Source of the DNA: Sulfurimonas sp.
GTDB taxonomy: Bacteria; Campylobacterota; Campylobacteria; Campylobacterales; Sulfurimonadaceae
Assembly: GCA_027019335.1 (NCBI GenBank)
Contig: JALUWV010000064.1
Location: forward strand, 1-47,705
Direction: 5' to 3'
DNA: 47,705 bases
Shown here: positions 1,179 through 18,758 of the stretch, piece after piece
Layout: each line of letters begins with the position of its first letter
Position numbering within the stretch: position 1 is the first letter of the stretch
The notes under the pieces: model-generated
What the model was told of the DNA's origin: nothing
What the model saw: the letters and a program-made list of their open reading frames with translations, nothing else
Database searches by the model: none
Position numbers and translations under genes: made by a program

Positions 1179-2447
1179 GTGCCACATAAGAAACTGAATC
1201 TTTCAAGACAACTCCTAAAATCAGTACTCACTATCTATTTTATTATTACTATAGCTATTACTGCATTGCATATCTATGTAGATTATAGTTATACAAAAAT
1301 ACATATCAAAGATGAACTCCAAAGTATAGCAAAGATTTTCAAGCCAGCACTGCGAACCGCTTTGTGGGATTTGAATGATGCACAGCTACATGCTATTGTG
1401 AATGGGGTGCTTGAAGAACCACTCATCTATAAGATAGCGGTTACAGATGAAAAGGGCAAGACTCTTGTCGAAAAAATTGATAAAAAATTTGCAAAGAAGA
1501 AAACTTTTAATGAGACACTCTCTTTCTCTTTTCCTATTTATCAAGAATTCAACAATTTACATATACACCTTGCAGATGTTGTGATATATTCGGATAATTT
1601 AGCAATTTTTAATCGTCTCAAAGTCGGTTTTGGTATGATTTTGTTGAATGCTCTTGTAAAAAGTACTGTTCTTATTGTGTTGCTTATAGTTGCGTTTAAA
1701 GATAGGCTTGAGCGACCTCTGCAATCGCTGACAAATAGTATAGAGACATTAGAGTGGGAACATAAACAGAATCGTGTTATTAATGTAGGACTTGTTTATG
1801 AAAATGAGCTTTCGATTTTGCAAGCAAAATTTAATGAGTTACTTGCAAAAATATCAAGTGAGGAAGAGAAAAGATTTGCACTTATAGAAAAACAAAATAT
1901 TCAATTAGAGTATGATGTCCAGCAAAGAACACAAGAACTCGAAGCACTCAATCACAAACTACAAACTCTCGCAAAAACAGATAGCCTCACACAACTCTAT
2001 AACCGTTCTAAAATTGATGAAGAGTTGGCTCTAAGGCTCAAAGAATTCCACCGACATGAAAGAGTTTTTTCTGTGATAATGGTTGATATAGATTTCTTTA
2101 AAAGTGTAAACGATATTTATGGGCATCTCGTAGGAGATTCTGTTCTTCAAGAGATAGCAAATATACTTAAAAGCAACATACGAGAAACTGATATTGTAGG
2201 TCGCTGGGGTGGGGAAGAGTTTTTAATTATATGTAAAGAGACTACACTTGAAGGGGCATATACCCTTGCTGAAAATATTCGTAATGTTATAGATAAGCAT
2301 GATTTTGAGACAGTTGGACATAAAACAGCAAGTTTTGGTGTCGCTCAAATGCAAAAAGATTTTAGAATTGAGGATTTGATTAAAGCAGCAGATGATGCTT
2401 TATATGCAGCAAAAGATAATGGGCGTAATAAAACTGTTCGGGCTTGA
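1179..2447 (+). CDS. membrane-anchored diguanylate cyclase (GGDEF)
   Basis: This enzyme makes cyclic di-GMP from two GTP. Order: a short cytoplasmic N-terminus, TM1 (SVLTIYFIITIAITALHIYV), a periplasmic region of about 110 residues, TM2 (LLNALVKSTVLIVLLIVAF), a HAMP-like linker, a coiled coil ending in LQTLAKTDSLTQLYNR, then a GGDEF domain. The active-site motif is GGEEF, with an RETD inhibitory I-site five residues before it, so the enzyme should be active and subject to product feedback. Start choice is uncertain. A GTG at 1179 sits directly after the upstream stop. An ATG at 1128 would overlap the binding-protein gene by 50 bases with an AGG upstream. Operon position suggests that the binding protein supplies its signal. 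Confidence 0.87.
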   Translation: MPHKKLNLSRQLLKSVLTIYFIITIAITALHIYVDYSYTKIHIKDELQSIAKIFKPALRTALWDLNDAQLHAIVNGVLEEPLIYKIAVTDEKGKTLVEKIDKKFAKKKTFNETLSFSFPIYQEFNNLHIHLADVVIYSDNLAIFNRLKVGFGMILLNALVKSTVLIVLLIVAFKDRLERPLQSLTNSIETLEWEHKQNRVINVGLVYENELSILQAKFNELLAKISSEEEKRFALIEKQNIQLEYDVQQRTQELEALNHKLQTLAKTDSLTQLYNRSKIDEELALRLKEFHRHERVFSVIMVDIDFFKSVNDIYGHLVGDSVLQEIANILKSNIRETDIVGRWGGEEFLIICKETTLEGAYTLAENIRNVIDKHDFETVGHKTASFGVAQMQKDFRIEDLIKAADDALYAAKDNGRNKTVRA

Positions 2448-15425: not shown

Positions 15426-15806
15426 ATGAATGAAATGTACAACATGGGACTCTCTATCCACTCCCTAGGCACAGTTGTTTTTTTGGGGGTACTTGCTCTC
15501 AATATAGTGATGATAAAACAAGCTACTTCCTACCCGAAATATAGACGCTTGCATAGTATATTTTTACTGCCTCTCACAGTGAGTATTTTAGGGGTGGCTC
15601 TTTTTACTGGGGTCATTATGATGGCAGCAAAGCATTTAGATTTTACCATTGCGAATCTTGTGATGATATTTATCTCTCTCATTTTAATATATTTGGAAAG
15701 AAAACGAACGAAGGCTTTGGTCGCATATAAAACTTTAGGGGTGAAAATTTTAGCTATAGAGATAGTACTTGTCCTTCTCATATCTCTTTGGATGTGGTTT
15801 GTATGA
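15426..15806 (+). CDS. four-helix integral membrane protein of unknown function
   Basis: This 126-residue inner-membrane protein has four hydrophobic helices: LGTVVFLGVLALNIVMI, FLLPLTVSILGVALFTGVIM, IANLVMIFISLILIYL and LAIEIVLVLLISLWMWFV. Short basic loops (YPKYRRLH, ERKRTKALVAYK) lie between them. It contains a His in the first helix region (SIHSLG) and another before TM2 (RLHSIF), which recalls small heme or copper membrane proteins, but that is only a pattern. It lies three bases after recQ and its stop overlaps the rsmE ATG (ATGA), so it is part of this operon. Family not recognised. Confidence 0.7.
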   Translation: MNEMYNMGLSIHSLGTVVFLGVLALNIVMIKQATSYPKYRRLHSIFLLPLTVSILGVALFTGVIMMAAKHLDFTIANLVMIFISLILIYLERKRTKALVAYKTLGVKILAIEIVLVLLISLWMWFV

Positions 15807-16474
15807 TATACCTTTTTGATGCAAATGCAGGCAAAGAGCATCTAGTCCTTAAAGGCGAAACACATAAATACCTTGTAAAAGTTCTTCACCATAGTGTAGG
15901 GGATATACTTAAACTGAGAAATAAAGACTCCATCGAAACTTTACATCTATATGAAATCGTGAGTATTGAAGGGAGAAGTTTGACACTACATCTCATTGAG
16001 AGTAAAAGAAACGAAATCAATCCTCAAAAAAAATTACATATTGGCTGGTGCGTAATCGAGAGTAAGTCCATTGAAAAAATGCTTCCAAGTTTAAATGAAA
16101 TAGGGGTAAGTCGTATCTCCTTTATCTATTGTGAGAGAAGTCAGAAGAACTTTAAGCCTGATTTTAAACGATTTGAACGTATTTTAGAAGCTTCTATGCA
16201 ACAATCTGGCAGAACACATACAATGGAACTCGATACATACAAAAATGTACATCAGTTTATAGAAGAGTTTCCAGAGACAAAAGTGTTTGATTTTAGTGAT
16301 ATGGTTTTAGAAGGAGATAGTAACTTTGAGCAAGTACTAGTAGGGTGTGAAGGGGGCTTCTCTCAAGATGAAAAAGAGTTTTTAAAAAGTCAAGATGTCT
16401 TTAGACTCAACACCCCAATGATACTGCGTTCTGAGAGTGCGGTTATGGCAGTATCGAGTAAAATTTTACTTTAA
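15803..16474 (+). CDS. rsmE: 16S rRNA (uracil-1498-N3)-methyltransferase RsmE
   Basis: RsmE of about 223 residues methylates U1498 of 16S rRNA with S-adenosylmethionine. The N-terminal PUA-like part is present (HKYLVKVLHHSVGDILKLR). The SPOUT knot region has WCVIESKSIEKMLPSLNEIGV, ERSQKNFKPDFKRFERIL and EASMQQSGRTH, then VGCEGGFSQDEKEFL and the knot end LRSESAVMAVSSKIL. The start at 15803 is chosen because ATG overlaps the preceding TGA (ATGA); an upstream in-frame ATG would extend five residues into the membrane-protein gene. Near rpmE, rsmI and rlmB it forms a ribosome-maturation neighbourhood. Confidence 0.94.
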   Translation: MIYLFDANAGKEHLVLKGETHKYLVKVLHHSVGDILKLRNKDSIETLHLYEIVSIEGRSLTLHLIESKRNEINPQKKLHIGWCVIESKSIEKMLPSLNEIGVSRISFIYCERSQKNFKPDFKRFERILEASMQQSGRTHTMELDTYKNVHQFIEEFPETKVFDFSDMVLEGDSNFEQVLVGCEGGFSQDEKEFLKSQDVFRLNTPMILRSESAVMAVSSKILL

Positions 16475-16486
16475 AGAAATTTTAGT

Positions 16487-16492
16487 TATAAT
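16487..16492 (+). promoter_or_regulatory. -10 box of rpmE
   Basis: TATAAT, 85 bases before the rpmE ATG. Transcription from here would give a 5' leader of about 78 bases that contains two stem-loops. No strong -35 box. Confidence 0.5.
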
Positions 16493-16503
16493 CACAACTC
16501 TAA

Positions 16504-16563
16504 AAATCTGCCCCCATACGGATTTAAAAAACTATATAGATATACGTACATACGACGTGTATC
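16504..16563 (+). promoter_or_regulatory. structured 5' leader of rpmE (two stem-loops)
   Basis: Stem 1 pairs 16504-16510 (AAATCTG) with 16519-16525 (CGGATTT) around an eight-base loop CCCCCATA. Stem 2 pairs 16539-16547 (GATATACGT) with 16555-16563 (ACGTGTATC) with one G-U pair and a seven-base loop. Stem 2 ends directly before the AAAAGG ribosome site. The layout suggests autoregulation by the L31 protein or a translational switch; no experimental support is visible. Confidence 0.45.
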
Positions 16564-16576
16564 AAAAGGCAAACAA

Positions 16577-16777
16577 ATGAAAAAAGATTTACACCCTAAC
16601 TTTGTAACGTGTACAGTAACTTGTGCATGTGGAAACACTTTTGAGAACAAAGCAGCTCAAGATACACTTAGAATTGACATCTGTAACGAATGTCATCCAT
16701 TTTTTACTGGTTCTGAGAGAATGGTTGATACTGCTGGACGTATTGAAAAATTCAATGCACGTTACGCTAAAAAGTAA
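16577..16777 (+). CDS. rpmE: 50S ribosomal protein L31 (zinc type)
   Basis: bL31, 66 residues, a surface protein that bridges the two ribosomal subunits. It is the zinc-binding (C+) form, with cysteines in CTVTCACGN and a CNECHPFF pair. The C-terminus [22 protein letters not shown] is typical. It has its own -10 box and a leader with two hairpins. Ten bases separate it from the rsmI start. No zinc-free paralog is in the window. Confidence 0.97.
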
Positions 16778-16787
16778 TCTTTAAGAT

Positions 16788-17603
16788 TTGCTTACTCTCG
16801 TTCCAACTCCGATTGGAAACATCGGCGATATGTCACTTCGAGCTATTGAAGCTCTGAGTGAAGCCGATACTCTACTCTGCGAAGACACTCGTGTTACAAA
16901 AAAACTCATCCACATTTTAAAAGAACGGTACCAAACTCTTTTTAAAGAAAATCAAGAATTTATCTCTCTGCACTCTCATAATGAACAGGCTTTTGTTGAA
17001 AAACTCGAACCCTCATTTTTTGAGCAAAATGTTGTTTATGCAAGTGATGCAGGAATGCCAGGGGTAAGTGACCCTGGACAAGTGCTTGTGGCATACTGTT
17101 TGAAAGAAGGGATTGCTTATGATGTACTTCCTGGTGCAAATGCGGTACTGACCGCATTTGTTGCAAGTGGTTTCGTAGAAACACAGATGCTCTTTTTGGG
17201 CTTTTTAGACCATAAAGGAAGTAGCAGAAGTGCAGGATTACAACAAGCATTGCATAATGGTTTTACAAGCATACTTTATGAATCTCCTCATAGACTCGAA
17301 AAGCTCCTTTTAGAGATAGAAGCAGAAGTACCAGAGCGGGAACTGTTTTTGGCAAAAGAACTTACAAAGAAGTATCAAAAATATTTTCGAGGGACTGCTA
17401 CAGCTGCCTTGAACGAGTTAAAGGGTAACTTTAGAGGTGAGTGGGTTGTCGTGATTCGAGCGAGTCAAGCACAGAGTGCTTCGGCGATTACTCAAAAAGA
17501 TATTTTAGGTTTAGACCTTCCTAAAAAAGTACAAGCAAAACTCATCAGTAAAATTACAGGTGAAAATACAAAAGTTTGTTATCAAAGGCTTTTATCGCTA
17601 TAA
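16788..17603 (+). CDS. rsmI: 16S rRNA (cytidine-1402-2'-O)-methyltransferase RsmI
   Basis: RsmI methylates the ribose of C1402 in the decoding centre. The 271-residue protein starts at a TTG with the usual LTLVPTPIGNIGDMSLRAIE, where the GNIGD loop binds SAM. Further signatures are LLCEDTRVTKKLI, SDAGMPGVSDPGQVLVAYC, VLPGANAVLTAFVASGF, and FYES-type ILYESPHRLEKLL. The conserved KELTKKYQKYFRGT follows. The last ~50 residues resemble the helical tail seen in this family. It lies ten bases after rpmE and is likely in one transcript. Confidence 0.96.
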   Translation: MLTLVPTPIGNIGDMSLRAIEALSEADTLLCEDTRVTKKLIHILKERYQTLFKENQEFISLHSHNEQAFVEKLEPSFFEQNVVYASDAGMPGVSDPGQVLVAYCLKEGIAYDVLPGANAVLTAFVASGFVETQMLFLGFLDHKGSSRSAGLQQALHNGFTSILYESPHRLEKLLLEIEAEVPERELFLAKELTKKYQKYFRGTATAALNELKGNFRGEWVVVIRASQAQSASAITQKDILGLDLPKKVQAKLISKITGENTKVCYQRLLSL

Positions 17604-17604
17604 T
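17599..17604 (+). promoter_or_regulatory. -10 box of the second PAS gene
   Basis: TATAAT overlapping the 3' end of rsmI, 26 bases before the PAS gene ATG. A GGAG ribosome site stands between (17621-17624). Confidence 0.45.
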
Positions 17605-17630
17605 TATTTATAAAAAAATTGGAGTGACAG

Positions 17631-18047
17631 ATGCAAAGTATTTACAAAGATGCAAAATCAGAAGAGTGGCATTTTCCAGAGGCAAGTTATATTCTGAGTG
17701 AAACAGATGCAAAGGGTTTGATTCTTTATGCAAATGATTTGTTTTGTGAGATTGCAGGATACACCATAGAGGAACTCATTGGAAAACCGCATAACATAGT
17801 TCGACACCCTGATATGCCTCGCATTGCGTTTAAAGGTCTTTGGGATGATATACAAACAAAGGGTTTTTGGAATGGTACGGTAAAAAACCTTCGTAAAGAT
17901 GGTGGATACTACTGGGTCGATGCAACCGTTTTGCGTAAGGTAAATAGTGATGGAAGTATCTCTTATCTGTCGATTAGAAGAGTTCCCAATCGTTCTACTG
18001 TTGATGAATGTGTCGTATTGTATGCCAAACTACGAAGTAAAGAGTAA
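17631..18047 (+). CDS. Aer-like PAS-domain protein
   Basis: This 138-residue single-domain PAS protein is a close paralog of the one at 11094: [40 protein letters not shown] and YYWVDATVLRKV are the Aer-type FAD pocket and hinge features. No transmembrane helix or output domain is present, so it must act through a partner. It has its own -10 box and a GGAG ribosome site. Unlike the first copy it does not lie beside a chemoreceptor; its neighbours are the rRNA methyltransferases rsmI and rlmB. It probably senses redox state and works with a distant chemoreceptor or regulator (inference). Confidence 0.82.
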   Translation: MQSIYKDAKSEEWHFPEASYILSETDAKGLILYANDLFCEIAGYTIEELIGKPHNIVRHPDMPRIAFKGLWDDIQTKGFWNGTVKNLRKDGGYYWVDATVLRKVNSDGSISYLSIRRVPNRSTVDECVVLYAKLRSKE

Positions 18048-18065
18048 ATATTTAGAATTTTTAGA

Positions 18066-18071
18066 TAAAAT
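18066..18071 (+). promoter_or_regulatory. -10 box of rlmB, possibly leaderless
   Basis: TAAAAT six bases before the rlmB ATG, with no Shine-Dalgarno sequence between. The predicted transcription start coincides with the start codon. Confidence 0.4.
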
Positions 18072-18077
18072 ACTTTT

Positions 18078-18758
18078 ATGTTAATATATGCAAAACAACC
18101 AATTTATTATTTAATCAACAAATATCCAAAAAAGATAAAAAAACTCTATCTTGCTAAAGAGATAGAGAAAAAAGAGTACTCGCGTCTGATGAAAATGGGC
18201 TTTGAGATAAAACGCATTCCTAATGAAGCGGCACAAAAAATGTGTAAAAATGCCTCACATCAAGGTTTTCTAGCAGAAGTCGATACAATCATCTTACAGC
18301 CTTATGATTTCTTCTTAGATAAAAAGTTTGTCCTCATTCTCTCTGGTCTCACAGACATTGGCAATATCGGGGCTATTGTTCGGAGTGCTTATGCTTTAGG
18401 TGTGGATGCCATCATAGCGTGTGGTGTAAAATCACTGCCTTTAGAGCATATCGTGCGTACAAGTACTGGGGCATTGTATGATATGCCTTTTGCGATTGAA
18501 AATAACATCCATGATGTCTTAAATGACTTTAAAATGTCAGGATTTACTTCGTATGGTGCAGATATGAGCGGACAAGATATACGAGAAACTCGCATTGACA
18601 AGAAAAAAGTTTTAGTTTTAGGTAGTGAGGGAGAAGGTCTATCCTCTCGTGTCGTCTCAAAGCTAGATTGCCCTGTCAGTATAAAAATGAAACATGATTT
18701 TGACTCACTCAATGTCAGTGTAGCAGCAGGAATTTTGATGGATAGGATGCATTCGTGA
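18078..18758 (+). CDS. rlmB: 23S rRNA (guanosine-2'-O-)-methyltransferase RlmB/TrmH family
   Basis: This 226-residue SPOUT methyltransferase has an N-terminal substrate-binding part (LIYAKQPIYYLINKYPKKIKKLYLA) and the three knot motifs: LILSGLTDIGNIGAIVRSAYALG, LVLGSEGEGLSSRV and SIKMKHDFDSLNVSVAAGIL. These mark the TrmH family, with RlmB (Gm2251 of 23S rRNA) the best-fitting member because of the N-terminal L30e-like domain. The site specificity is inferred. Its stop overlaps the GTG start of the RodZ-like gene. Confidence 0.9.
   Translation: MLIYAKQPIYYLINKYPKKIKKLYLAKEIEKKEYSRLMKMGFEIKRIPNEAAQKMCKNASHQGFLAEVDTIILQPYDFFLDKKFVLILSGLTDIGNIGAIVRSAYALGVDAIIACGVKSLPLEHIVRTSTGALYDMPFAIENNIHDVLNDFKMSGFTSYGADMSGQDIRETRIDKKKVLVLGSEGEGLSSRVVSKLDCPVSIKMKHDFDSLNVSVAAGILMDRMHS

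Follow-up and report, generated by a model that had tools for sequence, protein, structure and literature searches.

The rpmE locus and its predicted 5' leader

The window, by which we mean the whole 47,705-nucleotide stretch of Sulfurimonas sp. DNA that was analysed, contains the gene for ribosomal protein bL31 amid three rRNA methyltransferase genes, rsmE, rsmI and rlmB, at 15803-18758. The rpmE gene (16577-16777, plus strand, as are rsmI and the leader elements given below) encodes bL31 of 66 amino acids. It is detected above cut-off by NF000612 (100 bits, cut-off 70) and by TIGR00105 (96.3 bits), which confirms the gene assignment made in a first-pass annotation of this DNA. It is followed by rsmI, the gene for a 16S rRNA 2'-O-methyltransferase (16788-17603; TIGR00096, 249 bits), which is probably contained in the same transcript, and is preceded by rsmE, which ends at 16474, upstream of the leader. 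When the gene order is compared among relatives, rsmI is found within 400 bases behind rpmE at all 100 loci, and rsmE within 400 bases upstream at 61 of the 99 testable loci. At the other 38, rsmE is not found and the leader still accompanies rpmE. This result indicates that the leader belongs to rpmE, probably to an rpmE-rsmI unit, and not to the upstream gene.

The box TATAAT at 16487-16492 is a putative -10 promoter element, and a transcription start near 16499, about 7 bases downstream of the box, is predicted from it. The resulting leader of about 78 bases (16499-16576) was proposed in the first-pass annotation to contain two stem-loops, the second of which adjoins the ribosome-binding site. 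The minimum-free-energy fold of the leader contains exactly these two stem-loops (16504-16510/16519-16525 and 16539-16547/16555-16563). Its energy is -14.9 kcal/mol, as compared with a mean of -6.6 kcal/mol (sd 2.3) for shuffled sequences (z = -3.6), and none of 200 dinucleotide shuffles folds as well. Hairpin 1 (16504-16525) has a stem of 16504-16510 with 16519-16525 and the loop CCCCCATA at 16511-16518. Hairpin 2 (16539-16563) is assigned a stem of 16539-16546 with 16556-16563 and a loop at 16547-16555. The Shine-Dalgarno (SD) sequence AAAAGG (16564-16569) follows directly, so that its AGG begins 3 bases past the end of hairpin 2.

The generic promoter scan is at chance level (3 promoters found, 4.3 expected in shuffles), and the promoter call therefore rests on the conserved place of the box. 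The gap between TATAAT and hairpin 1 is 11 bases in the window. A -10-like box with at least five of six matches is present within 40 bases of hairpin 1 at 98 of 100 relatives, 9-14 bases before it at 94 of these family loci and farther away at 4; no box reaches five matches at the remaining 2. Transcription is predicted to start 4-5 bases before hairpin 1. The SD core, taken as AGG or, failing that, as AAG, lies 2-6 bases past hairpin 2 and 6-9 bases upstream of ATG at all 100 loci. In the two-dimensional ensemble, which does not include the pseudoknot described below, the mean unpaired probability is 0.60 for the SD (below 0.5 at 33 of 100 loci) and 0.52 for the ATG (below 0.5 at 48 of 100).

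Covariation of two hairpins and a pseudoknot

Two alignments were used for the analysis of covariation. The genus alignment A1 contains 48 of 51 genus loci, leaving out L023 and L040, which are identical to others, and L035, which has a long insertion; its mean column identity is 70%. RNAalifold applied to A1 without guidance yields the same two helices. When the structure is written out for the genus alignment, 97.8% of the cells pair and both sides are changed at 9 of 15 pairs. The covariation score of 0.383 exceeds that of shuffles (0.137) and that of slid structures, which does not rise above 0.068. The wider alignment A3 contains 100 loci, 45 of the genus and 55 of 17 other genera, drawn from 126 leader loci (L001-L051, L119-L147, L149-L180, L181-L187 and L188, less L148). 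All 100 are matched by R1, a covariance model built from the genus alignment, the E-values of which are rough. The loci left out are L023, L038, L040, L043, L049, L050, L135, L138, L143, L174-L176 and L181-L188, of which L135, L138, L143, L174-L176 and L181-L188 are also matched by R1. In the 99 distinct rows of A3, 95.2% of the cells of 18 pairs are paired, and 14 pairs are changed on both sides. For hairpin 1, changes on both sides are seen at 6 of 7 pairs, although 43 of the 99 rows do not form the outermost pair; for hairpin 2, such changes are seen at 7 of 8 pairs, and 97.5% of the cells are paired. U-G pairs are common: one position of hairpin 2 has them in 65 of 99 rows, and one of hairpin 1 in 22 of 99. 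Because the opposite strand would have A-C mismatches at these places, it is the sense RNA that folds. The loop of hairpin 2 takes insertions (L009, L016, L035); the insertion at L035 and L208 (869-1006 of each) is about 50 bases long and is itself an inverted repeat, and the leader core is unchanged there.

The check for covariation proposed in the first-pass annotation was carried out with a script that follows the idea of R-scape. A corrected G statistic was calculated for 2346 column pairs, with a null in which the substitutions are re-dealt along the tree. Six pairs are significant (E<0.05) with the tree of rpmE coding DNA and five with the tree of the leader itself, and all of them belong to the proposed structure, including pair 11-55 of hairpin 1 and three to four pairs of hairpin 2. 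When the test is repeated with a new seed, five pairs are below 0.05 and one is at 0.075 on all 100 rows. Three pairs, including that of the pseudoknot (0.025), are below 0.05 when the genus is removed, three when only the genus is used, and three on a genus alignment made without the structure. No pair outside the structure is significant, either at E<0.05 in the first run or at E<0.1 in the repeats. For most of the remaining pairs of the structure, variation is insufficient to reach significance singly.

As the comparative evidence shows, the leader also forms an H-type pseudoknot, which had been missed in the first-pass annotation. RUA in loop 1 pairs with UAY in the linker just before hairpin 2, so that a hairpin loop is paired with bases downstream of its own hairpin. 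In the window, these strands are AUA (16516-16518) and UAU (16535-16537), and one base joins the pseudoknot to hairpin 2. The A-rich linker between hairpin 1 and the UAU strand (16526-16534) provides the third strand, with A in 97-99 of 100 loci at three columns. One of the three pairs varies enough for testing. It joins the third base from the 3' end of loop 1 to the linker base that is separated from hairpin 2 by a single base. When positions are counted in this way, it is A-U at 59, G-C at 38, G-U at 1 and another combination at 2 of 100 loci. When it is counted by alignment column, the numbers are 59, 37, 2 and 2, the difference arising because L121 is shifted. On the stored alignment, which is not fitted to the pseudoknot because R1 does not contain this third helix, they are 60, 31, 2 and 6 of 99 distinct rows. 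In the tree-aware test, this pair has a G of 93.6, as compared with null maxima of 66 and 88, and it is significant (E<0.05) both on all rows and without the genus. The neighbouring UA of the loop is opposite UA of the linker in most rows; five Sulfuricurvum-type rows have GGU opposite ACC, and L124 has GUU opposite AAC in a shifted register. On the tree of rpmE coding DNA, the joint state of the pair changes 9 times, the loop base 8 times and the linker base 7 times. Agreement of loop and linker is therefore not the result of one inherited event. Within the genus, the pair is nearly constant (44 A-U and 1 G-U of 45), and the genus sets are unable to test it because it hardly varies there. A single aligned family leader, that at L147 of genome G110 (1684-1788, minus strand), lacks the pseudoknot pairing and has a loop 1 that is remodelled by an additional hairpin-like stretch.

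Several unpaired bases are also nearly invariant: C at three positions of loop 1 (100, 99 and 88 of 100 loci), the A of the linker, and an A in the loop of hairpin 2 (98 of 100).

Retention of the hairpins in near relatives, another point raised at first pass, was examined by eye and by model. The rpmE gene was located in 88 of 99 relatives, and the same leader is seen by eye at all 51 genus loci among these 88, one of which (L050) is cut by a contig end. It is not seen by eye at the 37 rpmE loci of other families. R1 matches the window at 16496-16582 (91.5 bits) and 207 of the 228 genomes of the family Sulfurimonadaceae, in 208 of which rpmE itself is found, and at all 100 aligned loci its matches extend to 4-7 bases beyond the A of the rpmE ATG. 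All 18 genera of the family have the leader when a laxer search is counted, because the locus L145 of G122, the one genus missed under strict filters, is recovered at 31.6 bits. Each matching genome has one match, except G014, a draft genome with two. The second copy in it (L188, contig C42, 26-110, minus strand) lies at a contig end, so that the gene behind it is cut off, and may be a strain duplicate of the C243 locus, which is also at a contig end.

Outside the family, R1 yields only isolated weak matches. It matches 46 of 398 genomes in a sample of the order (45 of the family and G427, E 0.095, off rpmE) and 13 of 150 in a sample of the phylum (11 of the family and 2 weak matches, neither at rpmE). 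The matches in G427 and G068 (E 0.053) were rejected, both lying away from the rpmE of those genomes. Among 80 named rpmE loci, R1 matches 47, each directly before rpmE; these carry the titles Sulfurimonas, Sulfuricurvum or Sulfurimonadaceae, or belong to metagenome-assembled genomes with less precise names. The 33 that are not matched include loci with the titles Campylobacter, Aliarcobacter, Sulfurospirillum and Sulfurovum and three loci of other phyla.

A possible operator for bL31

A covarying RNA structure in the 5' leader of a ribosomal-protein gene, adjoining rpmE at all 100 aligned loci, places this element among ribosomal-protein leaders in the general sense. The five L31 motifs published by Eckert and Weinberg (2020, PMC7247131) are described as single hairpins from other lineages, and those from Actinobacteria, Coriobacteria, Corynebacteriaceae and Firmicutes resemble the present leader in being lineage-bound rpmE leaders backed by covariation. 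They differ from it in that none is from Campylobacterota and all are single hairpins, whereas the present leader has two hairpins and a pseudoknot. No L31 family of Rfam is found at gathering score in the window or at 23 further family loci (L004, L008, L016 and 20 others), nor is one found even among the weak Rfam matches to 16440-16620. No Rfam family of any kind reaches gathering score in the window or at 60 loci, apart from a tRNA near one non-family locus. Likewise, no Campylobacterota L31 leader was found in searches of openly licensed papers. The first-pass statement that bL31 leaders occur in other phyla and that none is described for this one thus agrees with the lineages of Eckert and Weinberg, with Rfam and with these papers. 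The leader is best read as structurally new in comparison with the known L31 leaders.

We propose, with a probability of roughly two in three, that the leader is a cis-acting translational operator through which bL31 limits its own translation. The structure is established by comparison, and we infer both bL31 as the ligand and repression as the outcome. According to reports on E. coli (PMC10931766, PMC9825181), bL31 represses its own mRNA there through a hairpin that separates an A/U-rich bS1 site from the SD, and its N-terminus is required for this autorepression. In the present leader, when free bL31 is scarce, the three-base pseudoknot helix and the A/U-rich linker would open easily, and the 30S subunit would load on the linker and the SD in this open state. 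Free bL31, probably by its N-terminus (MKKDLHP), would bind the pseudoknot and hairpin 2 and lock them as one stacked rod against the SD. The locked rod would hide the A/U-rich site and block initiation on rpmE, and perhaps also on rsmI behind it.

This proposal is favoured because both hairpins and the pseudoknot covary beyond a tree-preserving null and nothing outside the structure does, because R1 is nearly as frequent in the family as rpmE and lies at rpmE in every aligned locus, because the leader is retained at rpmE in loci that have no rsmE detected upstream, and because the SD keeps its short distance from hairpin 2 without exception. By analogy, it is also favoured because the order of A/U-rich linker, hairpin and SD is the same as in E. 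coli, and because pseudoknot operators are known for uS15, uS4 and bL20. The Gammaproteobacterial leader (E. coli rpmE operator, Rfam L31 motif) is likewise described as a structured 5' leader of rpmE alone, with a hairpin near the SD and an A/U-rich stretch upstream of that hairpin. It differs in being a single irregular hairpin with two bulges, whereas a pseudoknot and a hairpin without an Rfam match are found here. The uS15 leader (rpsO) of mycobacteria and E. coli also has a pseudoknot in a ribosomal-protein leader, which in mycobacteria lies upstream of the initiation site and is required for repression, according to PMC10931766. Protein and gene are different in that case, and uS15 is described as recognizing a U-G/C-G motif. 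Several points count against the proposal. The pseudoknot has one variable pair of three, which is near-constant in the genus, and is absent at L147; the free, open state is not evident from folding, because the SD is only partly open in the two-dimensional ensemble without the pseudoknot; and a likeness to 5S rRNA is limited to CCCAU.

The last point arises from the leader loop CCCAUACGGA, which resembles the motif of loop C of 5S rRNA. However, 5S rRNA of the same genome has CCCAUUCCGAAC, only CCCAU is common to both, and the A of the leader changes to G together with its pseudoknot partner. The likeness is therefore probably due to chance. When the 18-base motif is scored over the whole 1,989-base 5S locus, the best windows are outside 5S. 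Transcription attenuation is disfavoured, because no terminator-like site is found in 15800-17200; hairpin 2 is followed by AAAAGG and not by a U run.

The leader might instead be a constitutive element for translation or stability, the folded 5' end of which protects the mRNA and hairpin 2 of which positions the ribosome site without any ligand. Its structure occupies what is predicted to be the extreme 5' end of the mRNA and adjoins the SD, as expected for such an element, but many of its unpaired bases are nearly invariant, which is beyond the needs of a stability hairpin, and bL31 has ligand-binding leaders elsewhere. We regard this explanation as unlikely. It is less likely still that the leader answers another ligand, such as another ribosomal protein, zinc or Zur acting through RNA, RsmI, or a metabolite. 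The last of these would be similar to the preQ1-I riboswitch, whose H-type pseudoknot has C in its loop and a third strand rich in A, a layout that is shared by the present leader. RF00522 aligns weakly to 16501-16541, but at 11.3 bits (E 6.8) as compared with the gathering score of 39, the gene is rpmE and not a queuosine gene, and hairpin 2 at the SD is extra. The constant presence of rsmI behind rpmE agrees with a ligand other than bL31, but rpmE is the only ribosomal-protein gene behind the leader. A switch involving a zinc paralogue, as in E. coli, was examined with NF002462, the model for type B bL31. None of 60 relatives exceeds its cut-off; in 54 of them a single weaker match is seen, which coincides in contig and position with rpmE. 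This result makes a zinc-paralogue repressor unlikely and argues against the zinc cascade of E. coli. That the hairpins arose by chance, or that the alignment merely mirrors close relatedness, is very improbable: the genus sequences are alike and the generic promoter scan is not above chance, but the covariation exceeds a tree-keeping null even in a genus alignment made without the structure, and the slid controls do not exceed 0.070, as compared with 0.383 for the genus alignment and 0.459 for the 100-locus alignment.

In a bolder reading, which we hold tentatively and at somewhat less than even odds, the leader would be the sixth operator for bL31, independent of the others in structure and the first to contain a pseudoknot; bL31 would act by locking this H-type fold, so that an A/U-rich site for ribosome loading is hidden. 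If the Sulfurovum-type leader, and perhaps also the C-rich element, both described below, are counted with it, one order would have invented two or three unrelated bL31 operators, and recognition of RNA by bL31 would be unusually easy to evolve. Several unrelated elements before one gene in one order would be a clean case for studying the re-invention of protein-RNA feedback. The analysis adds a covariation-backed regulatory RNA to a phylum with few known; in C. jejuni, the average 5' UTR is 30.6 bases and no metabolite riboswitch but that for TPP is reported (PMC3847290). It also provides a pseudoknot architecture, with the exact paired bases named, for a protein of which the leaders published so far are described as single hairpins.

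Other elements before rpmE in sister families

Upstream of rpmE in several other families of the Campylobacterales, near a promoter-like box, lies a C-rich stretch, CCCCUCCCC, after which come UAUAUAG and a hairpin. Alignment A4 of this element contains twelve loci picked by eye (L053, L061, L062, L063, L065, L066, L068, L069, L074, L078, L082 and L251), at which it lies 70-135 bases upstream of rpmE. Model R2, built from them, matches 81 of the 398 genomes of the order, none of which is of Sulfurimonadaceae. The place of rpmE is known for 18 of the 81, of which 11 contributed to the model. In the other 7, the match is upstream of rpmE on the same strand in six and elsewhere in G065. The element could be a separate small RNA, because the match in G065 is not at rpmE. 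Common descent of the Sulfurimonadaceae leader with this element, considered because both have UAUAUAG before a hairpin, is not established.

In family f6, a longer conserved leader of the form UUGUCUC ... GUUGCAA ... GGAAGAGCC ... AGGUUAGUUGCCU is found before rpmE. Alignment A5 of this leader contains ten loci, several of them titled Sulfurovum (L071, L081, L242, L243, L249, L250, L253, L262, L264 and L267), at which it lies directly upstream of rpmE. Model R3, built from these loci, matches 39 of the 398 genomes of the order, 38 of them in family f6. It lies directly before rpmE in all 7 matching genomes for which the place of rpmE is known, two of which were used to build the model.
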